Assembly: GCF_007827465.1 (NCBI RefSeq)
Contig: NZ_VISL01000001.1
Span: 1,378,501-1,442,500 of the forward strand
Source of the DNA: Dokdonia sp. Hel_I_53
Lineage (GTDB): Bacteria > Bacteroidota > Bacteroidia > Flavobacteriales > Flavobacteriaceae
Direction: 5' to 3'
Length of the DNA stretch: 64,000 nt
A model generated the notes under the pieces. It was not told the origin of the DNA. It saw only the letters and a program-made list of their open reading frames with translations, and did not search any database. Positions 1,843 to 58,202 of this stretch are shown one piece after another. The position numbers were made by a program, and so were the translations under genes. Every line of letters starts with the position of its first letter. Positions within the stretch are counted from its first letter, which is position 1.

Positions 1843-1856
1843 GCTTTCGCGAAAGC
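1843..1856. repeat. Highly iterated palindrome, copy 1 (intergenic)
   Basis: Perfect 14-base GCTTTCGCGAAAGC. It is the only perfect intergenic copy that is not downstream of a nearby stop codon: it lies 160 bases before the next start. Confidence 0.9.
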
Positions 1857-2003
1857 GGAATTAATTTTTAGATTGCATCCTCATATTTTGAAAAATTAAA
1901 AACATTTAAATCTAAAATTATAAATCTGTTGACACTATATTAACGCTCTATTGTGATCCCTGCTAGTAATATGTCCATAATTTTATTAAAAATTAATAGT
2001 GTT

Positions 2004-2507
2004 ATGAGTAGAAAAGACTTACAAAAAGAAGAAGCAATTGCAAAGCTTCAAGAACTAGCAGAAAAAATAGATTTTACAATGATGGCTACAGATCTTAGTA
2101 GACCCCCATTTCACGTAATTCCAATGAGTACAAAAAAAGTGGATGATGAGGGAAGCATTTGGTTTTTGAGTGATGCAACCAGCGACCATAATAAATATAT
2201 TAGAGAAGAAGAGCGTGCGCTACTCACCTATAGTAATCCTGGAGATTTTGAATTTTTAAGTGTCTATGGTCAAGCTATTATCCATAGCGACAGATCTATA
2301 ACTGATGAGCTCTACAGTAGTTCTGATGATATGTGGTTTGAAGGAAAGGAAGATCCTAATCTAACAGCCATCCAAGTGAAACCAAGTGAAGTGCGTTATT
2401 GGGATAGCAAAGACAACAAAATTGTATCTGCCATAAAATTTGGTCTCGGAACCATCACTGGAAATCAACCCAACTTATCAGAAAGCGGTGAGCTAAACAT
2501 TAACTAA
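2004..2507 (+). CDS. Pyridoxamine 5'-phosphate oxidase-like FMN-binding protein (general stress protein 26 type)
   Basis: 167 residues from ATG 2004 (MSRKDLQKEEAIAK). An upstream ATG at 1953 would add 17 residues unlike the family, so it is rejected. The pattern matches the flavin split-barrel stress proteins: a helix, then the core FTMMATDLSRPPFHVIPM, DEGSIWFLSDATSDHNKYI and LLTYSNPGDFEFLSVYGQA. These cytoplasmic proteins bind FMN or FAD; the substrate is not established. A hairpin terminator follows at 2586. Confidence is good for the fold, low for the exact reaction. Confidence 0.85.
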   Translation: MSRKDLQKEEAIAKLQELAEKIDFTMMATDLSRPPFHVIPMSTKKVDDEGSIWFLSDATSDHNKYIREEERALLTYSNPGDFEFLSVYGQAIIHSDRSITDELYSSSDDMWFEGKEDPNLTAIQVKPSEVRYWDSKDNKIVSAIKFGLGTITGNQPNLSESGELNIN

Positions 2508-2585
2508 CAGCTTAATGCACTAAGGCCTTTGTTAGTTAAGGGTCATTGATATGGTGTTTTACTCTTAAGGTTTTCAACACAATAA

Positions 2586-2619
2586 AAAAAATGACTCATA
2601 TAGGAAGTCATTTTTTTTT
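2586..2619 (+). terminator. Rho-independent terminator after the flavin-binding protein
   Basis: AAAATGACT (2588-2596) pairs with AGTCATTTT (2606-2614) and is followed by a T run to 2619. It is 79 bases after the stop codon. Confidence 0.7.
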
Positions 2620-2665
2620 GATTTCGATTTCATTTTGTATCATTGTCCTCCTCAAATCTATACTT

Positions 2666-3208
2666 ATGAAAATCTTTACACTACAAAGAAAAGCTCTTAG
2701 TTTTTCTAAAATTTCGCTACTAATTCTCTCTATGTTCTTGTTACAGGGCTGCCCTTATGAATCTACATTCCCACTTACAGGAAAAGACATTGTATTTCCA
2801 TCAGAGTACTTAGGTACTTGGTATGAAAAAGATGGCAATGAAGGTGTATTGGATTATAAAAAATATATATTCAGAGAACTTGACGATATGAGTATTTACT
2901 TAGATGAGATGGAACTCAATGATAATGATGAATGGGAAACCACTACCTATGAATGTCATATTTCTTATGTAGGTGAAAGTCGTTTTGTAAACGTTAAAAC
3001 AACAGACAAAACAAGTGATGGTGTTTATTATCTTTATAATGTAGAGATGGAAGACGATCAAATGAATGTCCGTGGGATTACAACGAACATTACAAAAGAA
3101 TTTGAAAATGCAGATTCTTTATATCAATATGTTGAAAAATACAAACATCTTGATTTCTTTTACAGTGCAGAAGATGCTAAAATATTAACACAGTGGGGAG
3201 ATCATTAG
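2666..3208 (+). CDS. Lipoprotein of unknown function
   Basis: 180 residues from ATG 2666. The start is chosen because it gives a normal lipoprotein signal: a basic N-terminus (MKIFTLQRKALSFSK), a hydrophobic core and the lipobox LLQGC. The longer frame from 2546 would place the signal internally. The mature protein is acidic and beta-rich (WYEKDGNEGVLDYKKYIF and similar), with no family I recognise. Likely periplasmic or outer-membrane anchored. Convergent with tRNA-Ser across a strong shared hairpin. Confidence 0.75.
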   Translation: MKIFTLQRKALSFSKISLLILSMFLLQGCPYESTFPLTGKDIVFPSEYLGTWYEKDGNEGVLDYKKYIFRELDDMSIYLDEMELNDNDEWETTTYECHISYVGESRFVNVKTTDKTSDGVYYLYNVEMEDDQMNVRGITTNITKEFENADSLYQYVEKYKHLDFFYSAEDAKILTQWGDH

Positions 3209-3284
3209 ATAGCCTCTAAAGTAGAATGATTCAATTATGTATTTGAGCTAAAGTCTCTGTGCAGATCAAATTCATTCAAACTTT

Positions 3285-3323
3285 AAAAAATCCCTTTGTA
3301 TAGCATATACAAAGGGATTTTTA
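3285..3323. terminator. Bidirectional terminator between lipoprotein gene and tRNA-Ser
   Basis: A 12-bp stem, TCCCTTTGTATA (3291-3302) against its complement at 3306-3317, has a 3-base loop and is flanked by A and T runs on both sides. It can end both the rightward lipoprotein transcript and the leftward tRNA transcript. Confidence 0.85.
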
Positions 3324-3330
3324 ATATAAG

Positions 3331-3415
3331 CAGAGAGGAAGGGATTCGAACCCTCGAAACGTTGCCGTTTACACACTTTCCAGGCGTGCGCCATCGACCA
3401 CTCGGCCACCTCTCT
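3331..3415 (-). tRNA. tRNA-Ser (anticodon GGA)
   Basis: The minus strand reads AGAGAGGTGGCCGAGTGG and onward, with acceptor arm AGAGAGG/CCTCTCT, discriminator G, a D arm starting GCCG, anticodon loop CTGGAAA (GGA), a long variable arm typical of class II tRNA-Ser, and the T-arm sequence GGTTCGAATCC. About 85 bases; CCA is not encoded. Confidence 0.95.
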
Positions 3416-3450
3416 AAAAAGAATTCATCAAAATTAAGCCCATTGTAAAA

Positions 3451-3463
3451 TTTCGCGAAAGCG
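3451..3463. repeat. Truncated copy of the iterated palindrome
   Basis: TTTCGCGAAAGCG: the right half is intact but the left GC is missing. It lies 74 bases past the asparaginase stop codon. Confidence 0.6.
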
Positions 3464-3536
3464 ATTTCTTCGACTATTTATTTGAAAGGAGTGCGAAATA
3501 ACAAAAAAAACCCTTCTTATAAAAGATATTTTATCT

Positions 3537-5677: not shown

Positions 5678-5746
5678 TGTGAATCTTCTTATATCTCACA
5701 AAAGAACAAAATTTTATGGTCTGTTTCAGCTTTATTTGCGAAGTTA

Positions 5747-6523: not shown

Positions 6524-6529
6524 AGATCG

Positions 6530-6537
6530 CAAAAATA
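6530..6537 (-). promoter_or_regulatory. Candidate -7 box (TATTTTTG) for tatD
   Basis: TATTTTTG on the minus strand fits TAnnTTTG. It ends six bases before ATG 6523, so the transcript would begin at or next to the start codon (nearly leaderless). It decides the start choice: TTG 6532 would lie within the box. Confidence 0.5.
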
Positions 6538-6564
6538 CTTGCTTCTATAGAAAGGTATTCTTTT

Positions 6565-6747: not shown

Positions 6748-6759
6748 TTAAAAGAATAA

Positions 6760-6873: not shown

Positions 6874-6875
6874 AA

Positions 6876-7868: not shown

Positions 7869-8274
7869 AGATTATTGCCGTATTAGACTTTTTCCTACAG
7901 TCACAAATCATTTAGAGATGAAGGCAAAAATAAATGGTGTTGAAGGTTCCTTTATTTTAGATACTGGTGCTTCTAGTTCTTGTATTGATTTTAGTTATGC
8001 AGAGAAATTTAATCTGCGTTCTGAAGATAGTGAAGTCCTTGCTGCTGGAGCTGGAGCTACAGATATGATCACTAAGCTTTCGCGAAAAAATAGTATCCAA
8101 ATACAAAAATGGAAATATCATAGACTAGACATTGTCCTCTTTGATCTCACACATGTAAATACAGCCCTAGAAAATCATAATGTAGCACAGGTACATGGTA
8201 TCTTAGGAGCAGACTTACTTAATCAAGGTAAAGGTATTATTGATTATCAATACAACTGCTTGTATCTTAAATAA
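7837..8274 (+). CDS. Retropepsin-like aspartic protease
   Basis: 145 residues with one catalytic LDTGASSSCIDF motif (Asp42-Thr43-Gly44) and the later GILGADLL that matches the second conserved hydrophobic-Gly strand of retropepsins. One DTG per chain means it should act as a dimer. No signal peptide is visible. The start at 7837 lies inside the 3' end of the CHAT gene; an alternative start is Met28 (7918), which keeps the whole protease core. Pairing with the CHAT gene suggests co-translation. A near copy of the iterated palindrome lies inside (8076-8087), encoding LSRK. Confidence 0.8.
   Translation: MPSLREFLLSKDYCRIRLFPTVTNHLEMKAKINGVEGSFILDTGASSSCIDFSYAEKFNLRSEDSEVLAAGAGATDMITKLSRKNSIQIQKWKYHRLDIVLFDLTHVNTALENHNVAQVHGILGADLLNQGKGIIDYQYNCLYLK
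8076..8087. repeat. Partial copy of the iterated palindrome inside the retropepsin gene
   Basis: GCTTTCGCGAAA; the last two bases of the core are changed. Read in the frame giving Leu-Ser-Arg-Lys. Confidence 0.6.
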
Positions 8275-9862: not shown

Positions 9863-11386
9863 ATGGCCATTCTAGGTACCCTTATAAAAAGCGCAATTGA
9901 CTTAAAGGACTCACTCACAAGTGATGCAAATCCTATTGAAGAGCAACAAAATGTTCTAAAAAATCTTCTTGATACCGCAAAAGATACCGCATTCGGTAAG
10001 TATTACGGATTTACTCAACTACTAGAAGAAGAGGATTTGAATTCCGCTTTCGCGAAAGCGATTCCCTATCACGACTATACTCAAATGAATGAAAAATGGT
10101 GGGAACGTATTAAAGAGGGAGTAGAGGATATTACATGGCCAGGAAAACCAAATTACTTTGCGTTAAGCAGTGGTACAACTGGTAAGAAAAGTAAAAGAAT
10201 ACCAGTAACAGATGATATGGTTGCAGCTATTAGAAGTACGAGCCTTGCACAAGTATCTGCACTAGCTCATTATGACCTACCAGCAGACTTTTTTGACAAA
10301 GAGGTAATGGCGCTAGGAAGCTCTACAGATCTAAGTGAGCACGATGAGTTTCTAGAAGGTGAGATAAGTGGTATTACAGCAAGTAACATTCCCTTTTGGT
10401 TTAAGGGCTTTTACAAACCTGGAGAAGATATCGCAAAAATTGACAACTGGGATGAACGGGTAAAAACAATAGCAGAGCGTGCAAAAACTTGGGATATAGG
10501 AGCTTTAAGTGGCATTCCTTCATGGATGGAGCTTATGCTTAAGGAAGTAATAGCATACCACAAAGTTGATACTATACATGATATCTGGCCCAATCTTGAA
10601 GTATTTACAAGTGGAGGTGTAGCATTTCAACCTTATGAAAAGAGTTTTAGACAATTACTTAATCGTGACATCACGATTATAGATACTTACCTAGCTTCAG
10701 AAGGTTTCATGGCGTACCAAAGCAGACCAGAAACAACTGCAATGAAACTTTCTACAGATGCAGGTATTTATTTTGAGTTTGTACCTTTTAAGCCAGAATA
10801 CATTAACGATGATGGGTCATTATCTCAAGATGCTCCTGCATTATCACTTAAGGATGTAAAAAAAGACGTTGATTATGTACTTATTATAAGTACAGTCTCT
10901 GGAACCTGGAGATATCTCATAGGTGATACGATTGCTTTTACTGATGTAGACCGCGCTGAAATTAAAATAACTGGACGTACAAAATTCTTTTTAAATGTTG
11001 TTGGGTCACAACTCTCTGTAAATAAAATGGAGGATGCCTTGAGAGATTTAGAAAAATCATTTGATATTGAGATTCCTGAATTCACACTAAGTGCAAAAAA
11101 GATTGATGGAGAATTTTATCACTGCTGGTATCTAGGAACGACTACTTCTGTAAGTGAAAATGAACTTGCAGAGGCTTTAGACAAGTCTTTGAAAGAAGCA
11201 AATAAAAATTATGGCGTGGCTAGAGGGAAATCTTTAAAAGGTGTCAAAGTAACAGTTATCAATCCTGAGGTATTTCACGAATGGAGCGGGGCCAATAAGA
11301 AAAAAGGAGGGCAAGTTAAAATGGAGAAAGTCATGGGAGAAGAAAAATTTGCCGAATTCGAAGATTTTGTAAAAAAGCAATTATAA
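9863..11386 (+). CDS. GH3 auxin-responsive-promoter family protein (acyl-acid amido synthetase type)
   Basis: 507 residues. The adenylate-forming signature is present as FALSSGTTGKKSKRIPVT (about 98-115), followed by a large N-terminal domain and a C-terminal domain with YLIGDTIAFTDVDRAEIKITGRTKF, the typical GH3 hinge region. Plant GH3 enzymes activate a carboxylic acid with ATP and join it to an amino acid; bacterial members have mostly unknown substrates. A perfect palindrome copy in the gene encodes SAFAKAIPYH (61-70), which looks like an insertion-tolerant helix. Followed by an 18-bp hairpin terminator shared with the convergent gene. Confidence 0.88.
   Translation: MAILGTLIKSAIDLKDSLTSDANPIEEQQNVLKNLLDTAKDTAFGKYYGFTQLLEEEDLNSAFAKAIPYHDYTQMNEKWWERIKEGVEDITWPGKPNYFALSSGTTGKKSKRIPVTDDMVAAIRSTSLAQVSALAHYDLPADFFDKEVMALGSSTDLSEHDEFLEGEISGITASNIPFWFKGFYKPGEDIAKIDNWDERVKTIAERAKTWDIGALSGIPSWMELMLKEVIAYHKVDTIHDIWPNLEVFTSGGVAFQPYEKSFRQLLNRDITIIDTYLASEGFMAYQSRPETTAMKLSTDAGIYFEFVPFKPEYINDDGSLSQDAPALSLKDVKKDVDYVLIISTVSGTWRYLIGDTIAFTDVDRAEIKITGRTKFFLNVVGSQLSVNKMEDALRDLEKSFDIEIPEFTLSAKKIDGEFYHCWYLGTTTSVSENELAEALDKSLKEANKNYGVARGKSLKGVKVTVINPEVFHEWSGANKKKGGQVKMEKVMGEEKFAEFEDFVKKQL
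10045..10060. repeat. Highly iterated palindrome, copy 2 (inside GH3 gene)
   Basis: CGCTTTCGCGAAAGCG, 16-base perfect palindrome, read as Ala-Phe-Ala-Lys-Ala (residues 62-66). Confidence 0.95.
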
Positions 11387-12159: not shown

Positions 12160-12882
12160 ATGAAAAAAATGTTGATTTTGGAACTGATATGCTGTTTAGC
12201 TTTCGCGAAAGCGGTTACCGCTCAACAACCAAACTCTGTTTCTCAAATAACAGGCCAAGAGTTACTAAACAAAGTTATTGCTTTTCATGACCCAGCAAAT
12301 AAATGGCCTTCCTTTAAAGGAACTTTTACAATTCTCTTAGAAAGCCCAAAGATGCAACCACGAAAAAGCACCGTAACTCTTAATTTACCAGAGGAGTATT
12401 TTAAGCTTGTTGAAAATAGAAATGGTAAGATTTCTACAAAAGAAGTTTCTGAAGAATGTTGTATTCTCTCTGATAAAGATATGCCTCCCACTAAAACAGC
12501 TCTAGATGATGATGTTTGTAAGCGAGCGCTTATGCTCAAAAATTATTATACTTACCTCTATGGACTTCCTATGAAACTAAGAGATCCAGGCACCATAATA
12601 AATCCTATAGTGTTGATTAAAAATTTTAAAGGAAAAGAATACCTTACTCTCCGTGTAACTTATAACGAGGAAGTAGGCAGTGATAACTGGGAGTTTTATT
12701 TTAATCCAAAAACTTACGCTATGGAGGCTTATCGTTTTTTTAAAGGGGATGATAGATCTACTGGAGAATACATACTTTTGACAGGATTAAAGGTTATTAA
12801 CGGAATTAAAATGCCAGAAAATCGAGCTTGGTATTACAATAAAGATAACGGCTACCTTGGAACAGATAAACTCATTCATTAA
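12160..12882 (+). CDS. DUF6503-like exported protein
   Basis: 240 residues. The signal peptide is MKKMLILELICCLAFAKAVT, ending AQ-Q, and its last part (Ala14-Ala18, AFAKA) is encoded by a perfect palindrome copy. The mature part resembles flavobacterial DUF6503 proteins, a LolA/outer-membrane-lipoprotein-sorting-like beta fold (WPSFKGTFTILLESP, YNEEVGSDNWEFYFNPKTYAMEAYRFF). Probably periplasmic; function unknown. A CC and a later Cys pair may be oxidised. The family name is from memory and not searched. Confidence 0.7.
   Translation: MKKMLILELICCLAFAKAVTAQQPNSVSQITGQELLNKVIAFHDPANKWPSFKGTFTILLESPKMQPRKSTVTLNLPEEYFKLVENRNGKISTKEVSEECCILSDKDMPPTKTALDDDVCKRALMLKNYYTYLYGLPMKLRDPGTIINPIVLIKNFKGKEYLTLRVTYNEEVGSDNWEFYFNPKTYAMEAYRFFKGDDRSTGEYILLTGLKVINGIKMPENRAWYYNKDNGYLGTDKLIH
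12199..12212. repeat. Highly iterated palindrome, copy 3 (in a signal-peptide coding region)
   Basis: GCTTTCGCGAAAGC, encoding Ala-Phe-Ala-Lys-Ala at residues 14-18 of the DUF6503-like protein. Confidence 0.95.
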
Positions 12883-17634: not shown

Positions 17635-17654
17635 TACGCTTTCGCGAAAGCGTA
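17635..17654. repeat. Highly iterated palindrome, copy 4 (20-base perfect palindrome)
   Basis: The core extends to TACGCTTTCG/CGAAAGCGTA. It lies 3 bases past the stop codon of the minus-strand RNA methyltransferase gene (stop at 17658). Confidence 0.95.
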
Positions 17655-17657: not shown

Positions 17658-18119
17658 TCAAGATCTTGATTTCTGGCGCGTTCTGTCATACATAACAATA
17701 CTGCCCGCTACAGCAACATTAAGACTAAATGTTGAAGAAAATTGAACTAAAAAATGAGACTCTTTGATAGCATCCTTAGAGAGTCCGTGGTCTTCAGCAC
17801 CTAGTAGGTAAACACATCTTCTGGGATGCTCAAATGTTTCTAAGGAAGCAGCGTTTTCATCCAGCTCGACACCTACAATACGCACGCCTTTAGGTAAATG
17901 GGTTTTAAAATCTTGAAAATTATCGTAGTGATAATAAGGCATTGAATGCACTGCGTTGTGAGTATCACTAGCTTGCTTTGCATACCGTTTACCTATTGTA
18001 AAAATAAAGCTTGCCCCTAAGTTTTGTGCAGACCTCCATAAAACCCCTAAGTTTTCTGGGGTTTTTCCATTTTGAATCCCTATCCCAAAGAATTCATTTT
18101 TAAAATTATCTGGCTGCAT
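17658..18119 (-). CDS. TrmH-like RNA methyltransferase
   Basis: 153 residues from ATG 18119 (MQPDNFKNEFFGIG); an upstream ATG at 18155 would add a hydrophobic dozen residues not expected in this family. SPOUT motifs: TPENLGVLWRSAQNLGASFIF, YLLGAEDHGLSKDAI and LVQFSSTFSLNVAVAGSIVMYDR. In place of the usual FGxExxGL it reads LGAEDHGL. It is the second SpoU-class enzyme within 2 kb but is not similar enough to be a recent duplicate. Confidence 0.85.
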   Translation of the reverse strand: MQPDNFKNEFFGIGIQNGKTPENLGVLWRSAQNLGASFIFTIGKRYAKQASDTHNAVHSMPYYHYDNFQDFKTHLPKGVRIVGVELDENAASLETFEHPRRCVYLLGAEDHGLSKDAIKESHFLVQFSSTFSLNVAVAGSIVMYDRTRQKSRS

Positions 18120-18156
18120 CGTAGTATATATAATAGTAAAGAAAATAAAGATCATA

Positions 18157-18562: not shown

Positions 18563-20011
18563 CTACCCAGCCACCTTCATCCTATCACTAACACGCTTCC
18601 AAAGAATATCTGCAGCAACAGAAGTATTTTTTAAGCTATCTAACATTTCATTTACATTAATGTGCTCAAATAATTGAGGATCATCTTGTGACCTCAAATC
18701 TCCACCTCCTGATACGGTAGCGAGATGCCAACCTTCAAATGTGCGTCCTACAGTAAAACCTTTCCATATAATTTCGACATTTGTATGACGATCATCAGAT
18801 TTTATGCTATTGTACAACTCCAATACGTCTTTTTTAGAGCCTTCTATCATTTGAAAAAAAGTAGCTTCATGATGTACTAAACACCCAGAAATATTATGTC
18901 GCATATTATTACTTCTAGAATTAGACACCATTTTATCAATATCGCTTTGTGTTAAAGATTTTTTTGCCTTTGACCTGTAACTGAGTTCAAATATTACTTC
19001 TTTATCACATACCTTTTTTCTAAAATCACTAGGCAGTAAGCCGTAAACCTCCTTATATTTTTTTGAAAAATAACTTCTGCTTGACAATCCTATTGAGTAC
19101 ACAATCTCAGAGATTGTATTATTTGTATTGAGTAAAAGTTCCCGAGCTCGCTCCATTTTTAAGCGAATAATTAGACTGTTTACTGTTTCTCCAAAAATAT
19201 GTTGCACCCCACTCTGAAGTTTTGCTGGTCCCATAGCTGCAGTACGAGAGAGTTCTTTTACAGACAGTTTGCTCCCTATATTTGATTTAATATAATCTCC
19301 TAAATCAATTATTTTACGTAACTCATCATCGCGTAAACCATGTGTTGTATTAGTATTAGCATCAGACTTTTGGTAAGAATCTATCTGTTCTGAGATAGTT
19401 TTAAGCACTGCACTTTCTGCCAATAGCCTACCTATAACATCTGTTCTGGTGTTTTTTACTAACAATGTTGTGTGCTCTGCAATCCTAGGAGAGATTTCTC
19501 CAAAATACTGAAAAGCGGTATCCTGCCCATCTACTTCAAAAAGTTCAAATACATCTTTCCATAATCCTTCTCTACTATGATACACGTCCTCAGTCATATT
19601 TTCTTTCATCGCTAGGATGGCAGTCATAGATATTTGAACATTTGCAGGTAGAATAATTGTGTTTTGCTCATCTGTAGCACTTGACAGAATTACATTCTGT
19701 AAATGACCAATTTTATTTACCTTATCTGTATTTTCAAATTTGTGATAGAAATAACCTTCTATACAATAAAGAAAATATAAAGGATTCATTTGGCTTTCAT
19801 CCTTTGTAAAAATAAATTCCTCTGATAACTTGATGTTATAGGTCCTTACCACAAGACCTGAGAAGATGACATGGTTTGTAATCACGCCCTTACCGTTATC
19901 ATTATCCAGCACAAGCTTAGATGCCCCAAGACTCTCACTGAAATCTGCCTCTAGAAATACAGCGAGCTTGCGAAGTTGGTCTGCAGGGGTTAACTCACTA
20001 ATGTTTAACAT
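18563..20011 (-). CDS. AraC-family transcriptional regulator with C-terminal BLUF blue-light sensor domain
   Basis: 482 residues. The N-terminal ~230 residues are a sensor-like region without a clear match. Residues 232-332 are an AraC DNA-binding domain: first helix-turn-helix at KLSVKELSRTAAMGPAKLQS, second at TISEIVYSIGLSSRSYFSKK with YKEVYGLLPSDFR. Residues 338-432 are a BLUF domain with the flavin photochemistry residues in place: Tyr345 (FELSYRSKA), Asn368/369 (SRSNN), Gln387 (FFQMIEG) and Trp428. BLUF binds FAD and senses blue light, so light-dependent transcription control is likely. A -7 box lies 20 bases upstream. Confidence 0.9.
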   Translation of the reverse strand: MLNISELTPADQLRKLAVFLEADFSESLGASKLVLDNDNGKGVITNHVIFSGLVVRTYNIKLSEEFIFTKDESQMNPLYFLYCIEGYFYHKFENTDKVNKIGHLQNVILSSATDEQNTIILPANVQISMTAILAMKENMTEDVYHSREGLWKDVFELFEVDGQDTAFQYFGEISPRIAEHTTLLVKNTRTDVIGRLLAESAVLKTISEQIDSYQKSDANTNTTHGLRDDELRKIIDLGDYIKSNIGSKLSVKELSRTAAMGPAKLQSGVQHIFGETVNSLIIRLKMERARELLLNTNNTISEIVYSIGLSSRSYFSKKYKEVYGLLPSDFRKKVCDKEVIFELSYRSKAKKSLTQSDIDKMVSNSRSNNMRHNISGCLVHHEATFFQMIEGSKKDVLELYNSIKSDDRHTNVEIIWKGFTVGRTFEGWHLATVSGGGDLRSQDDPQLFEHINVNEMLDSLKNTSVAADILWKRVSDRMKVAG

Positions 20012-21255: not shown

Positions 21256-21269
21256 GCTTTCGCGAAAGC
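21256..21269. repeat. Highly iterated palindrome, copy 5
   Basis: GCTTTCGCGAAAGC, ending 6 bases from the stop codon of the TolC-family gene (stop at 21276, minus strand). Confidence 0.95.
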
Positions 21270-21275: not shown

Positions 21276-22643
21276 CTAAAAATCGACGTTAAGTAACTGT
21301 CCCGTCAACTGCAACAGTGTAAGTTCAGCTAGCTTAGCTGTGTATTTTGCAGCGTTCTTACTCGTTTGAGTATTGAGCAAATTAAGCTGCGCCTGCCGAA
21401 ATTCTATACTTGTGATCTGTCCAAGTTTTAATCTTTCCTGTGAACGTTCAAAATTTGCAATACTAGTTGCTACGTTATCTTCTTGAAGATGGTAGATCGC
21501 TAGTGCATTAATATAATTTCCGCGAGCATTTGCAATATCTCTTTTTACAGATTGTTCTAGCTGCGCCTTTAAAATTTCTTGACTATCTAGAGCTATTTTT
21601 GCATTTTTTAGTCCTACAATAGAGCGCCCTCCGTCAAAAAGATTCCACCGTAAACTAGCTCCTGCCACTAATGAAGTAGATGTTCTTGTTGTGCTAGGAA
21701 AAAATGCAGAGGCAGGATTATTTGCTAGATTCCATCCATAGCTTCCAGTAAGACCTATGGTAGGTAAAAACAGACCTTTTGCTTTTTTTATCTCATAATC
21801 ATTAATGAGTATGTCTTGTTCAATTTGCAACAAACTCACGTTGTTTAAAGTGGCATTTTCAAGATAGCTATCCATAAGAAGAGGGCTTACAAATGTAACA
21901 GTAGTATCTGCCGTTTTTAAATCTTGTATATCACTGGCCAAGACGACATTTAAATCTCGTTGTGCGTTACGCAGTTGTTGAGATGCATTTAATAAATTAA
22001 TACTATCCGTTACAATATCCACCTGAGCATTGAGTATTTGAAGTCTATTTACCTGTCCATAGTCAAATTGATACTGAGCACGAGTTTCTCGCTGTTTTGA
22101 GATTTCTAAAGCCGACTCTAGTACTGATATATTTTCTTCAATTCTAGCAACTTCATAGTATACAGAAAAAAGTTGAAGCATTACATTTTCTATAGTTTCT
22201 CTCGCTTCTAACTGAGATAAATTATATCGTTCTTTGAGTTGCTTGTAATTGTAAAATCTTCCCAAGCCGTCAAATAATGTATAACTGGCATTTATGGATG
22301 CATCATAACGAGTTGTCTCTGCATCGTCAATGATTATATCAGGACGGGGATTGCCCTGTTGATCTAATGCACCTCCAAAATCATTAGTACTACTTGTTCT
22401 ATCAAAGTTTGCGCCTGCAAGTCCAAAAACTGTAGGCAAATAATTTGAATTGAGAATACTCGTATTATTTTCAGCAATGGCGACTTGGTTTGTCGCTAGT
22501 AGAACCCCAAAGTTGTTCTCTAGCATTTGTTGTACAGCATCCTCTTTGGATAATAATTGTGCCGTTTGCTGTGGGTACGCTTTCGCGAAAGCAAAAAAAC
22601 AAATAATACATCCAATATGTTTAACTAATCTTGATGGAATCAT
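21276..22643 (-). CDS. TolC-family outer-membrane efflux protein
   Basis: 455 residues. Signal peptide ending CFFAFAKAYPQQ, with AFAKA (18-22) encoded by a palindrome copy. The mature protein has the duplicated OEP repeat: long helices (SQLEARETIENVMLQLFSVYYEVARIEE and KAQLEQSVKRDIANARGNYI are positions about 152-179 and 365-384) and beta hairpins such as SYTLFDGLGRFYNYKQLKER and RWNLFDGGRSIVGLKNAKIA. It is the outer-membrane exit duct for the RND pump in the same operon; its start overlaps the upstream gene by four bases. Confidence 0.93.
   Translation of the reverse strand: MIPSRLVKHIGCIICFFAFAKAYPQQTAQLLSKEDAVQQMLENNFGVLLATNQVAIAENNTSILNSNYLPTVFGLAGANFDRTSSTNDFGGALDQQGNPRPDIIIDDAETTRYDASINASYTLFDGLGRFYNYKQLKERYNLSQLEARETIENVMLQLFSVYYEVARIEENISVLESALEISKQRETRAQYQFDYGQVNRLQILNAQVDIVTDSINLLNASQQLRNAQRDLNVVLASDIQDLKTADTTVTFVSPLLMDSYLENATLNNVSLLQIEQDILINDYEIKKAKGLFLPTIGLTGSYGWNLANNPASAFFPSTTRTSTSLVAGASLRWNLFDGGRSIVGLKNAKIALDSQEILKAQLEQSVKRDIANARGNYINALAIYHLQEDNVATSIANFERSQERLKLGQITSIEFRQAQLNLLNTQTSKNAAKYTAKLAELTLLQLTGQLLNVDF
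22577..22592. repeat. Highly iterated palindrome, copy 6 (in a signal-peptide coding region)
   Basis: ACGCTTTCGCGAAAGC; the perfect core is 22579-22592. It encodes AFAKA at the signal-peptide end of the TolC-family protein. Confidence 0.95.
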
Positions 22644-27967: not shown

Positions 27968-27985
27968 ACGCTTTCGCGAAAGCGT
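27968..27985. repeat. Highly iterated palindrome, copy 7 (18-base perfect palindrome)
   Basis: ACGCTTTCGCGAAAGCGT, 6 bases past the ABC-F stop codon (27992, minus strand). Confidence 0.95.
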
Positions 27986-40097: not shown

Positions 40098-40113
40098 CGC
40101 TTTCGCGAAAGCG
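40098..40113. repeat. Highly iterated palindrome, copy 8
   Basis: CGCTTTCGCGAAAGCG, 36 bases past the stop codon (40150) of the minus-strand membrane protein gene. Confidence 0.95.
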
Positions 40114-40979: not shown

Positions 40980-41909
40980 TTAAAACAATCTACCAAATGA
41001 AAAAGCGATAAATTGACTCCTACCCTCACGTGCCGTCTCTTTTGTTCTAAAGTTATAAATAAGCTCATACAAATTATGCACACCTCTATATACCGCTCCT
41101 AATTTAAAAGACAAAACTCTAGACTCAACAGGCAATGTAAACGGAGAAGAATCATTAAACGGGTGTCCCTCAATCAATGCATTAAGTGCTACGTATTCTA
41201 TACCCACGCCTCCAAAGCCATAAAACTCTCTATTAGACCCCAACCTATTAAAGGCACTGGTACAACCTATTCTTTCTCTATTACCAATAAACACCAACGC
41301 TTCTTGTCTCACAAAAATTCTCCTTGTACCTAGAGCTAATGTGGATGCTAGTGAGAAATTTTTAAGGAGATTTGAGTTAGGTACTGTTAAGTCTTTGACA
41401 TAGAAGCCATATGTATTTAAATGACTACTATTTGCTATCTGACCAGACCAAACAGGTATAAATTCACCAATAAGTTTATGATAAGAAATTTGAAATACTC
41501 TAGCTTTCGATTGCTCTCCCGCTAAACCTAATTCTAAGGCCAAAGAAAACAGCTCGCTTTTGCTTGCTCTTGAAATAGCTGATTTTAAAAATAAATACCC
41601 AGCATAAGGACGTTCTAATCTATCAAAGTTTGTATCAAAGAGTTCTCTCGGAGTATAAGTTTCTTGACCTATAGTCAAATCGAATTGCACAGGGTACAGT
41701 TCACTACCTTTAAATATAAAATCTCCATCAAGCTGCTTTCTATAACCTATAAAACTGCCAGCCGTATAATAACGATCTATAGCAAAGAGAAAATCATTAT
41801 CGTGCTGGAAATAATACCCCTGCAACGCTTCTGAGTTTGTAAGCTTATTTTTTTGCGCTTTCGCGAAAGCAAATAAGAACATCATGACAATAAAAAGATA
41901 CTTTTTCAC
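40980..41909 (-). CDS. Lipid A deacylase LpxR-family outer-membrane protein
   Basis: 309 residues. Signal peptide MKKYLFIVMMFLFAFAKAQK, with AFAKA (14-18) from a palindrome copy. The mature N-terminus QGYYFQHDNDFLFAIDRYYTAGSF carries the Asn-Asp and D-x-YYTxG motif of LpxR, and RPYAGYLFLK follows. The protein ends in Phe (FGRLF), as outer-membrane barrels do. LpxR removes the 3'-acyloxyacyl group of lipid A; whether this homologue does so is inferred from the motifs. Confidence 0.82.
   Translation of the reverse strand: MKKYLFIVMMFLFAFAKAQKNKLTNSEALQGYYFQHDNDFLFAIDRYYTAGSFIGYRKQLDGDFIFKGSELYPVQFDLTIGQETYTPRELFDTNFDRLERPYAGYLFLKSAISRASKSELFSLALELGLAGEQSKARVFQISYHKLIGEFIPVWSGQIANSSHLNTYGFYVKDLTVPNSNLLKNFSLASTLALGTRRIFVRQEALVFIGNRERIGCTSAFNRLGSNREFYGFGGVGIEYVALNALIEGHPFNDSSPFTLPVESRVLSFKLGAVYRGVHNLYELIYNFRTKETAREGRSQFIAFSFGRLF
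41855..41870. repeat. Highly iterated palindrome, copy 9 (in a signal-peptide coding region)
   Basis: GCGCTTTCGCGAAAGC; the perfect core is 41857-41870. It encodes AFAKA at the signal-peptide end of the LpxR-like protein. Confidence 0.95.
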
Positions 41910-42036: not shown

Positions 42037-43491
42037 ATGGAAAAGATAATAGATGAAGGTAAACAAGGTGAAGCCTTAACACTTGAGCGTAAAGCTCAAA
42101 ATACTAAAAAGCTTTTTATTGAAAGTTATGGTTGCCAGATGAACTTTGCTGATAGTGAAGTAGTGGCCTCCATACTTAACAATGAAGGATATAATACTAC
42201 TCAAGATCTTGAGGAAGCAGACCTCGTACTTGTGAATACTTGTTCTATACGAGATAAAGCAGAAGTTACCGTACGTAAACGTCTTGAAAAATACCAAGCT
42301 GTAAAGCGCAAGAAAAACCCAACAATGAAAGTGGGAGTGCTAGGCTGTATGGCAGAGCGGCTTAAAAGTAAATTCTTAGAAGAAGAAAAAATAGTGGATC
42401 TTGTTGTTGGTCCAGATGCCTATAAAGATATTCCTAATCTTCTTAGTGAAGTAGAAGAAGGACGCAATGCAGTAAATGTAATTTTATCAAAAGAAGAGAC
42501 GTATGGTGATATCTCACCTGTAAGGTTACAGACTAACGGTGTGACCGCTTTTGTGTCTATCACTAGAGGATGTGATAATATGTGTACCTTTTGCGTGGTT
42601 CCTTTTACTAGAGGTAGGGAGCGCAGCCGTGATCCGCAGTCTATTTTAGAAGAAGTAAATGATCTTGCTAGTAAAGGTTTTAAAGAAATCACTTTATTGG
42701 GTCAAAATGTTGACTCCTACCTATGGTACGGTGGCGGACTCAAAAAAGACTTTGCAGCAGCAAGTGACATGGCAAAAGCTACAGCAGTAAATTTTGCCCA
42801 ACTCATGGATATGGTAGCTCGTGCGCAACCTAAAATGCGTATTAGATTTTCTACTTCTAACCCTCAGGATATGACACTCGATGTAATTGAGGTCATGGCA
42901 AATCACAAAAATGTATGTAATTACATTCACTTACCAGTGCAATCTGGAAGTGACCGTATTCTAAAGTTAATGAATCGCCAGCATACAGCTGCAGAATACA
43001 AAAAACTCATCGACGATATTAAGCGCATTATTCCCGACATAGGAATAAGCCAAGATATGATTACAGGGTTCCCTACTGAGACAGAAGAAGATCAACAAAT
43101 GACCCTAGACCTAATCAACTATGTAAAATATGATTATGGATTTATGTTTTACTATTCTGAACGTCCAGGAACGCTCGCCGAAAGGAAAATGGAAGACGAC
43201 GTACCCCTAGAGGTTAAAAAACGTCGCTTACAAGAAGTTATAGATTTGCAACGAGAAATCTCTCGCACAAACCTACTACGCTATAAAGATCAAGTAGTTG
43301 AAATTCTTATTGAAAAAGAATCAAAAAAGAATAAAAACGAGTGGAGTGGTCGCAACGATCAAAATGTAGTTGCTGTATTCCCTAAAGGAGATTATAAGGT
43401 AGGCGATTTTGTAAATGTAAAAGTGACAGAATGTACGACAGGTACACTTATAGGTAAAGCAACTGGATACGCCAATTATTGGCAGGAGTAA
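42037..43491 (+). CDS. miaB: tRNA-2-methylthio-N6-dimethylallyladenosine synthase MiaB
   Basis: 484 residues. The N-terminal UPF0004 domain has three Cys (YGCQMN, NTCSIRD, GCMAER) for one iron-sulfur cluster. The radical-SAM domain carries RGCDNMCTFCVVPFTRGRERS (CxxxCxxC). A C-terminal TRAM domain (about 415-480) binds tRNA. It adds the methylthio group at position 37 of tRNAs reading U-starting codons. A 22-base perfect palindrome begins one base after the stop. Confidence 0.96.
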   Translation: MEKIIDEGKQGEALTLERKAQNTKKLFIESYGCQMNFADSEVVASILNNEGYNTTQDLEEADLVLVNTCSIRDKAEVTVRKRLEKYQAVKRKKNPTMKVGVLGCMAERLKSKFLEEEKIVDLVVGPDAYKDIPNLLSEVEEGRNAVNVILSKEETYGDISPVRLQTNGVTAFVSITRGCDNMCTFCVVPFTRGRERSRDPQSILEEVNDLASKGFKEITLLGQNVDSYLWYGGGLKKDFAAASDMAKATAVNFAQLMDMVARAQPKMRIRFSTSNPQDMTLDVIEVMANHKNVCNYIHLPVQSGSDRILKLMNRQHTAAEYKKLIDDIKRIIPDIGISQDMITGFPTETEEDQQMTLDLINYVKYDYGFMFYYSERPGTLAERKMEDDVPLEVKKRRLQEVIDLQREISRTNLLRYKDQVVEILIEKESKKNKNEWSGRNDQNVVAVFPKGDYKVGDFVNVKVTECTTGTLIGKATGYANYWQE

Positions 43492-43492: not shown

Positions 43493-43514
43493 TTACGCTT
43501 TCGCGAAAGCGTAA
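43493..43514. repeat. Highly iterated palindrome, copy 10 (22-base perfect palindrome)
   Basis: The longest copy: the halves TTACGCTTTCG and CGAAAGCGTAA pair fully. It starts one base after the miaB stop codon. Confidence 0.95.
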
Positions 43515-47318: not shown

Positions 47319-47334
47319 CGCTTTCGCGAAAGCG
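47319..47334. repeat. Highly iterated palindrome, copy 11 (between groES and groEL)
   Basis: CGCTTTCGCGAAAGCG, 8 bases after the groES stop and about 70 bases before the groEL start, inside the chaperonin operon. Confidence 0.95.
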
Positions 47335-47380: not shown

Positions 47381-49039
<1,659 letters not shown>

Positions 49040-49170: not shown

Positions 49171-49938
49171 TTAGACGTAACTAAATAACATCGCTATTGC
49201 CATTAAAATCATAATGGCATTTTCGATAAAAGTTGCCTCAGTCATTGGTAATTTAAGTGCTGTGCCTAAACAAGCGCATTGGATTGATTTTTTATCAAGC
49301 AATGTTTTAGTTACACCAATGGTCGTAATTCCTAACACGATGATTGTTGCTACTAAGGCAAATTCCACATAGAAGCGCATTAAAAATAGTAACCCCAAAA
49401 TGGTTTCAATAAAAGGGTAAACTTTTGCATAAAAAGGAACTTTTTTTGCGAGAGGATCATACATCTGAAAGCTCTGAGCAAAACCTTTTAAATCTAGCAT
49501 TTTAAAAAAGCTAAACACTATATAAAATAACCCCATAAAGTCTAACATTCCAGCTTTCCAATTCCACTCTTTATAATGAAGTAAAATTGAAGCTACTGTA
49601 ATATAGAGTAGGATTAAAAATAAAGGTTTGAGCTGACTAAGTTTTGAAGATGTTTCCGCTTCCGCGAAAGCGTGGTCAGAATTTTTAAAAACTCCACTAC
49701 TACCTTGATTCGTTTCTAGATCTTGCTCCGAAGGTTTATTCTCTATAACTGTATACTTCACAGGCAAAACTTCTTGTAATGTGCTTGCCGTTATATGAGT
49801 GGTGGCTTCAATAACAGCTTGTTCTTTTTCAAGATTCACAGCTGCGTGAGAAATACTAGAAATTTCATTGAGCATCTTTTCAACAGAAGACCTACATCCG
49901 TTGCAGGTCATTCCTTTAATGGTATATGTTTGCGTCAT
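49171..49938 (-). CDS. Fusion of a heavy-metal-associated (HMA) domain with a MauE/DoxX-like membrane domain
   Basis: 255 residues. Residues 1-68 are an HMA domain with the metal-binding GMTCNGC (Cys12, Cys15). A linker (about 69-104) contains AFAEA (90-94), encoded by a one-mismatch copy of the iterated palindrome. Residues 105-255 hold about four membrane helices with QCACLGTALKLPMTEATFIE near the end, a MauE/DoxX-like pattern with a Cys-x-Cys. Probably a membrane metallochaperone or thiol-linked redox protein. Last gene of the metal cluster on this strand. Confidence 0.8.
   Translation of the reverse strand: MTQTYTIKGMTCNGCRSSVEKMLNEISSISHAAVNLEKEQAVIEATTHITASTLQEVLPVKYTVIENKPSEQDLETNQGSSGVFKNSDHAFAEAETSSKLSQLKPLFLILLYITVASILLHYKEWNWKAGMLDFMGLFYIVFSFFKMLDLKGFAQSFQMYDPLAKKVPFYAKVYPFIETILGLLFLMRFYVEFALVATIIVLGITTIGVTKTLLDKKSIQCACLGTALKLPMTEATFIENAIMILMAIAMLFSYV
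49657..49672. repeat. One-mismatch copy of the iterated palindrome
   Basis: CGCTTCCGCGAAAGCG, in the linker of the HMA-MauE fusion gene, encoding Ala-Phe-Ala-Glu-Ala. Confidence 0.75.
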
Positions 49939-51591: not shown

Positions 51592-52359
51592 TTAAAATGA
51601 ATAGCGTGTTCCTAAAAACACACTGTAATTTAATTCTCTTGATGTTGGTAAATTTTGAATAAGTGGCATTTGTACTGCGAGATCTAAAGTGATATTCTTT
51701 CCTGCATATTGCACACCTTGTGCATAAAGCAACTGATACCAATCCCTCTCAGTAAGCAGTGTACTTGTATATTCAAAATATAAATTGAGTTGCTTATTTG
51801 GATATTGTGGTTTTAATAATGGTAAACCAAATCCGAGTTTTGTTCTAAACTCATCCAAGGTACCATCTGGCTGCCAGTTATAGCCTATCTCTGTACTAAT
51901 ACCGTATTTTAAAGTTTCATATCCAGATACTAAGCCATAATATCCAGCATATTTTCCAGTACTAAGCTCCATTAGATCTAATTCTTCACCTGTAGGCAAT
52001 GTTTGTAAGGTTTTTGCTACCATACGGAATGTTTTACCTGTAGCATCTTTACGGTAGAATTGATATTTCCCTAGCAGCTTGATATCGGCTAGATCATTTC
52101 CAGATGCACCTCCCTCAATATCGTAAGATATATATGGTAGATGCAATGCAACTAATGAGTTAGACGTAGGAAGGTAGTGTAACATTACAGGTAGGTACAC
52201 CGCATTAAGTCTTTCGGTGTTTCGAAATTCTGTTAGTGTTTTTATTGTAAAACTTCCTCCACCTAACATGATAGGCTTATCGGCGGTTATAGGTGGCCCT
52301 TGTGCGTACGCTTTCGCGAAAGCGAAAAACGCAATTATTATTAAAAGATAATTTTTCAT
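51592..52359 (-). CDS. Outer-membrane beta-barrel protein of the metal cluster
   Basis: 255 residues from ATG 52359. Signal peptide ends FFAFAKAYAQ, with AFAKA (13-17) encoded by a palindrome copy. The mature protein consists of alternating amphipathic strands (YLPVMLHYLPTSNSLVALHL, KLGFGLPLLKPQYPNKQLNL) and ends in Phe (LGTRYSF), as outer-membrane barrels do. No TonB box or plug is visible. Possible passive porin for metal or partner of the downstream HMA protein; that is inference. Confidence 0.78.
   Translation of the reverse strand: MKNYLLIIIAFFAFAKAYAQGPPITADKPIMLGGGSFTIKTLTEFRNTERLNAVYLPVMLHYLPTSNSLVALHLPYISYDIEGGASGNDLADIKLLGKYQFYRKDATGKTFRMVAKTLQTLPTGEELDLMELSTGKYAGYYGLVSGYETLKYGISTEIGYNWQPDGTLDEFRTKLGFGLPLLKPQYPNKQLNLYFEYTSTLLTERDWYQLLYAQGVQYAGKNITLDLAVQMPLIQNLPTSRELNYSVFLGTRYSF
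52309..52324. repeat. Highly iterated palindrome, copy 12 (in a signal-peptide coding region)
   Basis: CGCTTTCGCGAAAGCG, encoding AFAKA in the signal peptide of the outer-membrane barrel. Confidence 0.95.
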
Positions 52360-52494
52360 TATAATCAATTTTTACACCAGCAAATATGCAGGTGATGTAT
52401 TAATAGTATGTGTCTTCTTTAGAAAACACTGTATCCATTCAGACAACTAAAGGAATGGGAAGTAATCCTATAAAGTATAGGACGGGGTTTACTA

Positions 52495-52911: not shown

Positions 52912-52916
52912 GATAG

Positions 52917-52961: not shown

Positions 52962-53060
52962 ACATTACAATTTTCGTGCCTATCTATCTCATTTTTAGTG
53001 AATTTTCATAAGCACATAGCTTTGAAAGCTATATTAAATTTATCGTTGAACTTATAGTGG

Positions 53061-53624: not shown

Positions 53625-53661
53625 AATCTAAAATTTAGAAAGCAAAAATACGAATGGTCTA

Positions 53662-54090
53662 TTAATTTACCTTACGCGCATAAAAAAATGCAGGGATTAA
53701 TAAAAATACAAGGAGTGGTTGTATTAAAAAACGTCTTACATAAAAAAGAGGTAGATAATTCTCCGGCTTATAGAATTGCAACATAACACACATAGCTACC
53801 ATAAGTAAAACACCTACTACTACGTATAGTAACACGGCAAGTTTGAGTATTTCCTTCTTGTAAAACACCGCCCACAAAAGGCCCATTGATAAAGCCGTAT
53901 TTAGAAAAAACCTCAATAAAAGATAAAGTAATAGCTTCCATTCAACTATTATTGGTAATGGATGGTTTTGATACGCTCCTTGAAAATAGTTGATAAGAGG
54001 ATCATAAAATAGTTCGCTTTCGCGAAAGCGTATGCATAACAATCCAATTAAGCAGCCCGTTGTAATTAAAACTCGCACACTATTTTTCAT
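53662..54090 (-). CDS. Exosortase F system-associated membrane protein
   Basis: 142 residues, four membrane segments (about 6-22, 50-72, 80-105 and 117-138). It starts inside the 3' end of the xrtF gene (11-base overlap), the arrangement expected for the XrtF-associated protein. A palindrome copy near the start encodes IRFRESE (20-26), a frame different from AFAKA. It is likely an obligate partner of the XrtF protease. Confidence 0.8.
   Translation of the reverse strand: MKNSVRVLITTGCLIGLLCIRFRESELFYDPLINYFQGAYQNHPLPIIVEWKLLLYLLLRFFLNTALSMGLLWAVFYKKEILKLAVLLYVVVGVLLMVAMCVMLQFYKPENYLPLFYVRRFLIQPLLVFLLIPAFFYARKVN
54015..54030. repeat. Highly iterated palindrome, copy 13 (inside a gene, third frame)
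   Basis: CGCTTTCGCGAAAGCG inside the XrtF-associated protein gene, read as Arg-Phe-Arg-Glu-Ser. Confidence 0.95.
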
Positions 54091-54631: not shown

Positions 54632-54664
54632 GAGGTGTATTTAGACCTCTAAAATACGAGAATT

Positions 54665-55120: not shown

Positions 55121-55141
55121 ATACAAACAGCGCTTGTTCTT

Positions 55142-55184
55142 AAAATATCTCCAAAAATCTGTACAGATTTGTGGAGATATTTTT
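55142..55184. terminator. Bidirectional terminator after the GAF gene
   Basis: AAAATATCTCC (55142-55152) and AAAATCT pair with AGATTT and GGAGATATTTTT: a long stem around GTAC between convergent genes, with T run. Confidence 0.85.
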
Positions 55185-55203
55185 ATGCTTTAAAGAAAAA
55201 CTT

Positions 55204-56466: not shown

Positions 56467-56573
56467 AGGTTAATTTTATCAAAAGATATGAGTAAGACGT
56501 CACTATTGATAAAATGTTACAAACTCATACTATTTTGTTCATAGAATACTCATTTAAAAAGTCTTAAAATTCC

Positions 56574-56581
56574 TATTTTTG
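56574..56581 (+). promoter_or_regulatory. Candidate -7 box (TATTTTTG) for purH
   Basis: Full TAnnTTTG match 52 bases before the purH ATG; -33 TTG not clear. Confidence 0.4.
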
Positions 56582-56633
56582 AGGCTTTAAATTCCTAACG
56601 ATACGCATAACAGAAACCTTCAACCCTTCTACA

Positions 56634-58166
56634 ATGACCCAAACAAAAAAAATAGGCGCAGCACTCATTTCTGTATTTCATAAAGATGGACTCGCTCCTA
56701 TTGTACAAAAACTTCATGAGCAAGGAGTAACTCTCTATTCTACAGGAGGAACTGAAAAATTCATTAATGATCTGGGCATCCCGGTTGTAGCTGTAGAGGA
56801 TGTAACTTCCTACCCCTCTATTCTAGGTGGACGTGTAAAAACTTTACACCCCAAAGTTTTTGGGGGTATCCTCAATCGTCAGGATCACGATGGTGATGTT
56901 AGTGAGATGAAAGAATATGATATCCCGCAACTAGACTTAGTTATCGTGGATTTATATCCTTTTGAAAAAACTGTGACTTCTGGTGCTTCAGAACAAGATA
57001 TCATAGAAAAAATTGATATCGGCGGCATTTCGTTAATACGCGCTGCGGCAAAAAACTTTAAGGATACACTATGTGTTTCTTCAATGGAAGATTATTCTGA
57101 AGTTTTAAAGATCATTTCAGAAAATGACGGAAATGTTTCTATGGAAGATAGAAAACGTTTTGCCGCAAAGAGTTTTGCTATTTCATCTCATTATGACACA
57201 GCCATATTTAAATATTTTAATAAAGAACAACAAATACCAGCTCTTAAGTTAAGTGCAAATGACGGTAAAGAATTGCGTTATGGAGAAAACCCACACCAGC
57301 GCGGAACCTTCTTCGGAGAATTTTCTGAAGTATTTGATAAACTACACGGCAAGGATTTATCTTATAACAACTTACTCGACGTAGATGCTGCTGTAAATCT
57401 TATCTCAGAATTCCAAAATGAAAAACCTACGTTTGCGGTATTAAAACACAATAATGCCTGTGGTTTTTCACAACGCGACACAATGCTTGATGCATATGTA
57501 GATGCACTTGCTGGAGATCCTACTTCTGCCTTTGGAGGTGTTCTAATTGCAAATGGCCAGATAGACAAAAACACTGCAGTAGAAATACATAAACTCTTTT
57601 GTGAGGTAGTCATTGCCCCATCATTTACTGAGGAGGCGCTTGAGATATTAAAAGGGAAGAAAAATCGCATACTTCTTAAACTAAAAAAAATAGTTCTACA
57701 AGAGCAGCTTTTGCGCACCTGTTTAAATGGAACTCTTATCCAAGATAGAGATTACATAACAGATAGTAAGGAAGACCTTACAAATGCTACGAACAAAATA
57801 CCTTCTGAGAACGAGGTAGAAGACTTATTATTTGCTTCAAAAATTTGTAAACACACCAAGTCTAACACCATTGTTCTTGTTAAAGGAAAGCAATTATGTG
57901 CGAGTGGAACTGGTCAAACTTCTAGAGTAGATGCTCTAAAACAAGCTATAGAAAAAGCAAAATCTTTTGGTTTTGACCTATCAGGTTCTGTAATGGCTAG
58001 TGATGCATTTTTTCCTTTTCCAGATTGTGTAGAGATTGCAGATAAGGCAGGAATTACATCTGTGATTCAACCAGGAGGATCAATTAAAGATCAATTAACG
58101 ATTGATTATTGTAACGAAAATAATCTTTCAATGGTCATGACTGGAACAAGACATTTCAAACATTAA
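56634..58166 (+). CDS. purH: Bifunctional AICAR formyltransferase/IMP cyclohydrolase PurH
   Basis: 510 residues. The N-terminal MGS-like IMP cyclohydrolase domain contains GGRVKTLHPKVFGGIL (62-77). The C-terminal formyltransferase domain contains KHNNACGF, in place of the common KHTNPCG. It catalyses the last two steps of de novo IMP synthesis. Alone between the MacB-type permease and mreB. A 20-base palindrome lies 16 bases after the stop. Confidence 0.96.
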   Translation: MTQTKKIGAALISVFHKDGLAPIVQKLHEQGVTLYSTGGTEKFINDLGIPVVAVEDVTSYPSILGGRVKTLHPKVFGGILNRQDHDGDVSEMKEYDIPQLDLVIVDLYPFEKTVTSGASEQDIIEKIDIGGISLIRAAAKNFKDTLCVSSMEDYSEVLKIISENDGNVSMEDRKRFAAKSFAISSHYDTAIFKYFNKEQQIPALKLSANDGKELRYGENPHQRGTFFGEFSEVFDKLHGKDLSYNNLLDVDAAVNLISEFQNEKPTFAVLKHNNACGFSQRDTMLDAYVDALAGDPTSAFGGVLIANGQIDKNTAVEIHKLFCEVVIAPSFTEEALEILKGKKNRILLKLKKIVLQEQLLRTCLNGTLIQDRDYITDSKEDLTNATNKIPSENEVEDLLFASKICKHTKSNTIVLVKGKQLCASGTGQTSRVDALKQAIEKAKSFGFDLSGSVMASDAFFPFPDCVEIADKAGITSVIQPGGSIKDQLTIDYCNENNLSMVMTGTRHFKH

Positions 58167-58182
58167 TAAAAGTTTAAGGGAC

Positions 58183-58202
58183 TACGCTTTCGCGAAAGCG
58201 TA
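58183..58202. repeat. Highly iterated palindrome, copy 14 (20-base perfect palindrome)
   Basis: TACGCTTTCG/CGAAAGCGTA, 16 bases after the purH stop and 67 bases before mreB. Confidence 0.95.

Follow-up and report, generated by a model that had tools for sequence, protein, structure and literature searches.

Exact signals that recur at even intervals throughout a genome are rare, and those that are understood, namely the DNA uptake sequences (DUS) and uptake signal sequences (USS), Chi, and the FtsK-orienting polar sequences (KOPS), have each led to a mechanism central to how cells handle DNA. Chi marks resident DNA, and phages can profit from it. The sites of parS, Noc, SlmA and MatP are palindromes bound by dimers, of a length similar to that of the element described here; they number in the tens and are biased with respect to ori or ter. 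The highly iterated palindrome HIP1 of cyanobacteria (GCGATCGC) is, in the sections of its description that concern these points, a dispersed palindrome present far above chance, gained by substitution and of unsettled function (PMC4390886). Here, we analysed a window of 64,000 nucleotides from Dokdonia sp. Hel_I_53 (NZ_VISL01000001.1, positions 1,378,501–1,442,500; all coordinates below are window positions unless another sequence is named), in which a 14-bp palindrome, GCTTTCGCGAAAGC, is present in 14 exact copies, compared with none in 100 dinucleotide-preserving shuffles. We tentatively propose, at appreciably less than an even chance, that the palindrome is a duplex self-DNA tag for a dimeric reader, Chi-like in role and kept by phages as a passport. 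No published description of it was found in literature searches by the 14-mer and by topic, as judged by title and the start of the abstract; by the same measure, papers containing its central decamer, TTTCGCGAAA, concern other subjects.

All 14 exact copies lie where an earlier note on this DNA had placed them. Among the near copies which it listed, the one at 8076 (two mismatches) stands, and others do exist, but those quoted at 3451 and 49657 start at 3449 (two mismatches) and 49658 (one mismatch), respectively. Its observation that the palindrome contains no stop codon in any frame also holds, the frames reading AFAK, LSRK and FRES. The 2.93-Mb single-contig genome (completeness 99.6%) carries 700 exact copies of GCTTTCGCGAAAGC, approximately one per 4.2 kb, and none of the reversed control, which does away with a density close to that expected from base composition, whereas segmental duplication of the window, the other refuting possibility that the note had considered, is contradicted by dispersion throughout the genus and by flanks near background. 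A 464-kb sample, consisting of the window and 20 evenly placed 20-kb stretches with 2,500 bases masked, contains 110 exact, 17 one-mismatch and 23 two-mismatch copies, against 0, 0 and 0–2, respectively, in six Markov simulations (orders 1–3, two each). The decamer TTTCGCGAAA occurs 137 times in this sample, flanked by the outer GC on both sides in 110 cases, on one side in 27 and on neither side in none. Beyond the palindrome, C before and G after (82%) and T three bases out (70%) are preferred; farther out there is little information, and the flanks are near background. Three further checks had been recommended in the note. One-armed variants (34 sites, seven of which lie in 57 kb sampled for its absence of exact copies) favour neither strand with respect to GC skew, with 16 against 12 (p 0.57; n = 28, six near the origin left out); 69 of the 110 sampled copies are non-coding, although coding sequence makes up 84% of bases; and 18/18 genomes of the genus carry 369–905 copies.

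It is the sequence read as a whole that matters, and not pairing. Outside palindromes, the half-site GCGAAAGC is near chance (5 against 5.1 expected) and CGAAAGCGT was found 3 times against 1.0 expected. The palindrome is broken in all 23 two-mismatch copies, no compensatory variants being seen, and the next flanking pair is C/G in 73/110 copies, with only two compensated alternatives. The lack of half-site enrichment and of compensatory variants indicates recognition of the entire sequence rather than of a foldable structure. Because isolated half-sites are not enriched, we dropped the idea of a mini-hairpin, which we had presumed GCGAAAGC to form.

With respect to genes, which were called with a home-made codon-score caller and whose starts are accordingly approximate in the distances given here, the placement of the copies is strongly skewed. 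Their density is 9.8 per kb at 5–10 bases past stop codons (13 in 1,322 positions) compared with 0.35 per kb at 75–500 bases (8 in 22,742 positions), and in spacers with an adjoining stop, 25 of 49 copies lie within 20 bases of it. Among the 41/110 sampled copies in coding sequence, the frame AFAKA is used in 26 (p 8e-5), and several sit in signal-peptide-like gene starts. The strong placement 5–20 bases past stop codons might suggest an element acting at the RNA level, either a hairpin in the 3′ untranslated region or a transcription terminator, all the more as both the motif and its 22-base extension can fold and the purH flanks look complementary by eye in some species. However, the genes on either side are divergent for 14 of the 63 copies located in gaps between genes, more than a third of all sampled copies are coding, as just stated, and the two-mismatch copies show that sequence is kept and pairing is not, which makes an RNA element highly improbable.

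The copies are spaced far more evenly than by chance. The 112 gaps between them average 4.4 kb, with a coefficient of variation (CV) of 0.71, and two are shorter than 1 kb, against 22.8 expected if placement were random. A placement model that keeps gene structure predicts 22.5 such gaps where 2/89 are observed (0/1000 simulations as low), and requiring sites to be at least 60 bases apart leaves 19.8 expected against 2 (0/500 simulations as low). Variance of the copy count per 20 kb is 1.85 compared with 5.4 expected (P 0.002), and each of the 20 stretches around the chromosome holds 2–7 copies, none being empty. One-armed variants also avoid exact copies, 4/27 lying within 1 kb of one, where 10.7 would be expected (P 0.006). 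A defence island, without exact copies and with two one-armed variants, lies in the largest interval observed, of 20 kb. This island (391634–411627 of the genome) encodes AbiEii, an Eco57I/MmeI-like restriction-methylase, an OLD-like nuclease and a UvrD helicase, and a MerT-type mercury gene lies just past it. Sparse stretches are not always foreign: one with two copies resembles, by the sizes of its unannotated genes, a ribosomal-protein operon.

Regular spacing, the occupancy of every stretch and the mostly non-coding placement are what could be expected if a nucleoid-associated or condensation protein bound the palindrome at intervals of approximately 4 kb and thereby folded or partitioned the chromosome, prophages carrying sites because they would have to fit into the folded structure, and a palindrome is typical of dimeric DNA-binding proteins. 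Yet, among 12 genomes of the genus that are at least 99% complete, copy number barely tracks genome size (r 0.26, p 0.41) and copy density falls in the larger genomes (rho −0.78, p 0.003), unlike what would be anticipated for a site needed everywhere. Noc, SlmA and MatP sites show ori or ter exclusion, whereas no exclusion of either kind is seen in the 20-stretch sample, and in place of tens of sites there are 700, evenly spread; we know of no precedent with 700 strict 14-bp sites. A role in chromosome architecture thus appears possible but rather unlikely.

Conservation of the sites exceeds that of their surroundings. In syntenic spacers of 20–1500 bases, taken at two syntenic anchors and scored on the first ortholog copy by the best match anywhere in the spacer, sites of the Hel_I_53 genome are exact in 39/61 comparisons with relatives and have at most one mismatch in 43/61, the within-genus comparisons not being independent of each other, whereas control 14-mers are retained in 429/43,415 cases (1%). 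The relative alone has the site in 8 comparisons, and decay, in the examples seen, proceeds by single-base changes. In the gene next to era, the site is present at one codon in 8/17 genomes with a gapless alignment, while the neighbouring spacer carries it in 7 other genomes, none having both and two having neither; these genomes are related, so that the independent events are fewer. Copies arise mainly by substitution.

Gain by insertion, expected of a mobile palindrome akin to repetitive extragenic palindromes with their RAYT transposases (REP/RAYT) or to miniature inverted-repeat transposable elements (MITEs), was found in a single insertion-like case, PurH of the genus g11, where the site lies inside a 6-residue insert. 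This case, the high copy number and the preference for spacers speak for such an element, which was among the possibilities named in the earlier note; the gapless substitutions in the other coding genes aligned, the near-background flanks, the even spacing and the matching codons in diverged phages (see below) speak against it, and no clean empty sites with target duplications were seen in the alignments examined. We consider this explanation to have next to no probability. In genome G016, which has an intact era, a further era-like stretch that is broken was noticed elsewhere (G016:C1:975-1858).

Palindromic form, dispersion over genes and spacers, and gain mainly by substitution sustain the likeness to HIP1 drawn in the earlier note as far as the pattern is concerned; for the mechanism, where tested, the likeness fails. 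Since the shape and dispersion resemble what the relevant parts of the HIP1 account describe (PMC4390886), the palindrome might arise as a side effect of an orphan DNA methyltransferase and mismatch repair, or be their target. By contrast with HIP1, it is 14–16 bp long, strongly intergenic, present about once per 4 kb and carried by phages at matching codons, and no methyltransferase of PF00145 or PF01555 is conserved: C5 enzymes (PF00145) exceed the cut-off in 10/22 and N4/N6 enzymes (PF01555) in 3/22 motif-rich genomes, and the Hel_I_53 genome matches neither family. The comparison covered these two families; one Eco57I/N6-type enzyme is present in the defence island. Inner TCGCGA outside palindromes is only mildly enriched (30 against 19.6 expected), and an origin through methylation is, in our estimation, very unlikely.

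The palindrome is tied to a few lineages. In a scan of 118 genomes, in which all members of the genus are motif-rich, 9/53 genomes of other genera of the family have any copy, with hundreds only in G027 (578), and 0/47 genomes from other families of the order carry copies. A 15-mer search of 397 genomes of the family matched 72, of which six have hundreds: the Hel_I_53 genome itself, a single congener, three genomes from the genus g11 and another from g219. At the level of the phylum, 16 of 296 genomes matched, with at most 4 outside the Hel_I_53 genome. Other than runs that were masked (two loci) and one A/T run, no other 12- or 14-base palindrome reaches three copies in 80 named 13–22-kb Flavobacteriaceae loci, which had been selected by PurH and independently of the motif. 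The 20 genus samples checked for other dialects include four short masked stubs, one g11, one imported cluster and four with other repeated oligomers. A possible second iterated oligomer is CTTCGGAA, found at 14 places in 21.5 kb of a Psychroserpens locus (L067) and rarer in sister loci; GTTCCACGTGGA, which we take to resemble the parS consensus, is present four times in 20 kb of L024 (G023, contig 1), and TGTCCGTTTGAAAA four times in 20 kb of L022 (G019, contig 1).

By precedent (PMC1939737, PMC7811141, PMC2397512), the chromosomal pattern best fits a self-recognition sequence for DNA uptake in natural transformation, which molecular drive would have spread as a palindromic analogue of the DUS of Neisseria and the USS of Haemophilus. 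In DUS of Neisseriaceae and USS of Pasteurellaceae, too, a long exact signal is evenly spaced in permissive places; the portions of the literature bearing on this report or argue for significant even spacing, an excess in non-coding or permissive sequence and gradual gain by point mutation (PMC1939737), and for DUS spacing matched to conversion fragments and DUS absence from recent insertions (PMC2397512). Moreover, Flavobacteriaceae can be competent, and R. columbina favours its own DNA, according to the pertinent part of PMC7965970. ComEC is encoded in 22/22 motif-rich genomes, but also in 33/34 genomes with 0–3 copies, and the type IV pilus/type II secretion ATPase (T2SSE) is strongly matched in only 8/22 motif-rich and 7/34 other genomes, the single-contig carriers G005, G007, G008 and G016 having only weak matches; pilus machinery was judged by this ATPase. 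Furthermore, as far as those same portions go, DUS and USS are neither palindromic nor biased downstream of genes (PMC1939737), and many recent DUS came by recombination rather than point mutation (PMC2397512), unlike the palindrome, which is biased to the bases past stops and is phage-carried; its codon-level conservation in phages would be unexpected for an uptake signal. An uptake sequence hence seems unlikely.

A 16-mer scan of IMG/VR yielded 41 stretches on 30 contigs, and all phage counts are conditional on this match, except for those of a portal-protein search with a query from two carrier phages. We analysed 23/30 contigs, the other seven being GC-rich (48% or more) with one site each. 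These 23 records hold 68 copies, seven of them having 4–7, and the gaps between copies (n = 34, from 11 of the 12 records with at least three sites) average 6.7 kb with a CV of 0.58. The carriers are of more than one type, including tailed phages that encode portal, capsid and tape-measure proteins and another type with a Mu-like transposase and tail sheath. The portal search returned 59 loci, of which 12 have at least 64% identity; sites are present in 11 of these, the remaining one stopping short of the conserved positions, and in 0/47 more distant relatives. Counted from the start of the portal gene, the first site is at +1705 or +1711 in 11/11 loci (exact in 8, with one mismatch in 3), and the second is exact in 10/10 loci that reach it. 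Between the two subgroups of these phages, local DNA identity is 62–66% and 42/16,490 control 14-mers (0.25%) are shared, and in both subgroups the two sites fall in open frames, reading AFAKA and RFRES; conservation in this phage group is thus at the level of codons.

The copies in other genera are grouped in islands that carry genes for resistance-nodulation-division (RND) efflux, multicopper oxidases and P-type ATPases, and clusters from many Flavobacteriaceae genera (L041–L054, L284–L286) share recurring spacings of 933 and ~2446 bases. We had considered such small clusters as a second motif lineage, which was rejected given the recurring spacings and metal-efflux genes of the islands; their presence suggests exchange with Dokdonia-type hosts. 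Two sites 222–223 bases apart are kept between the Hel_I_53 genome and two islands of g105 at ~75% identity. A site pair 223 bases apart looked like an autoregulated reader gene, but this was rejected, as it lies in a mobile-element region in which Pfam identifies DUF7192 and, where the two sites are, no DNA-binding domain.

That the palindrome is conserved in the DNA of hosts, phages and islands alike suggests a factor of the host which acts on whatever molecule resides in the cell. The self-DNA tag of Chi-like role is preferred because the pilus ATPase is not conserved, ComEC does not discriminate, the phages misfit uptake and no methylase is conserved in the two tested families. The palindrome would be a dispersed duplex site whose core, CGCTTTCGCGAAAGCG, is recognised as a single unit with two-fold symmetry; its most likely reader would be a homodimer made by the host. 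Approximately one site per 4 kb would be kept in the lineage, a site near another adding little and decaying and one in an empty stretch being favoured. By labelling resident DNA, the site may alter its handling by the DNA-processing machinery, such as end resection, repair or degradation of incoming DNA, in a role resembling that of Chi and RecBCD (or AddAB) but independent of orientation, which would explain the palindromic form; temperate phages and mobile islands of these hosts would retain it, as DNA lacking the label would be at a disadvantage. The density is similar to that of Chi, with 1,008 sites in the ~4.64 Mb of Escherichia coli in the part of the source that gives these numbers (PMC1939737). 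A related possibility, of which we are rather doubtful, is a passport working in both directions, whereby a host system of Dokdonia and two other Flavobacteriaceae lineages would spare DNA showing the palindrome every few kb and several phage types would have evolved the tag, likewise spaced by a few kb, and so be taken for self.

Several points weigh against such a tag. Known Chi sites are short and one-directional, whereas the palindrome is 14–16 bp and symmetric and its one-armed variants lack strand bias. A quick PurH tree separates the three motif genera, implying three changes, at least two of which are forced, so that losses or repeated gains are needed. The 20-kb gap with the defence island persists without exact copies. 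Within each of the two phage subgroups, several contigs are nearly identical to each other, and the strength of the phage evidence consequently rests on the comparison between subgroups. Two phage records have temperate features (an integrase in one, a Mu-type transposase in the other), so that sites could accumulate during residence without protecting. Finally, the presumed phage hosts are assigned by the motif alone, and, outside the portal search, the phage counts cover carriers of the motif.

The copies and variants in the window are compiled in Table 1. Elsewhere in the window, a single 482-aa protein encoded at 18563–20011 (−) combines an AraC-type helix-turn-helix with a BLUF blue-light domain.

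Table 1. Exact and variant copies of the palindrome in the window (ORF, open reading frame).
Feature	Position	Strand	Context
Exact copy	1843..1856	no strand	spacer, divergent genes
One-armed variant AATTTCGCGAAAGC	3449..3462	−	2 mismatches
One-armed variant GCTTTCGCGAAAAA	8076..8089	+	2 mismatches
Exact copy	10046..10059	no strand	within GH3-family gene 9863–11386, frame AFAKA
Exact copy	12199..12212	no strand	5′ end of DUF6503 ORF 12160–12882; spacer if start is 12352 (codon-score gene call)
Exact copy	17638..17651	no strand	6 bases past stop, SpoU-type methylase gene 17658–18155; retained in relatives
Exact copy	21256..21269	no strand	6 bases past stop, outer-membrane efflux gene 21276–22643
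Exact copy	22579..22592	no strand	near start of efflux gene 21276–22643; signal-peptide-like FAFAKAY
Exact copy	27970..27983	no strand	8 bases past stop, ABC-F-like gene 27992–29905
Exact copy	40099..40112	no strand	tandem spacer
Exact copy	41857..41870	no strand	near 5′ end, LpxR-like gene 40980–41909
Exact copy	43497..43510	no strand	5 bases past stop, UPF0004/radical-SAM/TRAM gene 42037–43491
Exact copy	47320..47333	no strand	9 bases past small predicted gene; 71 before Cpn60/GroEL gene 47405–49039
One-mismatch copy GCTTCCGCGAAAGC	49658..49671	no strand	
Exact copy	52310..52323	no strand	near start of gene 51592–52368; signal-peptide-like FAFAKAY
Exact copy	54016..54029	no strand	long divergent spacer; overlaps ORF 53662–54090, not taken as gene by caller
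Exact copy	58186..58199	no strand	19 bases past purH stop, before mreB; retained in relatives
One-armed variant GCTTTCGCGAAATT	59015..59028	+	

The palindrome is long, bound to a lineage and present in phages too, so that a single oligonucleotide should suffice to purify its reader. The palindrome clusters in other genera mark copper and other metal-efflux islands, as well as phages that probably passed through these hosts. If the proposed role is true, Dokdonia and its relatives would possess a mark of self and non-self that is written in the sequence, without methylation and without orientation.

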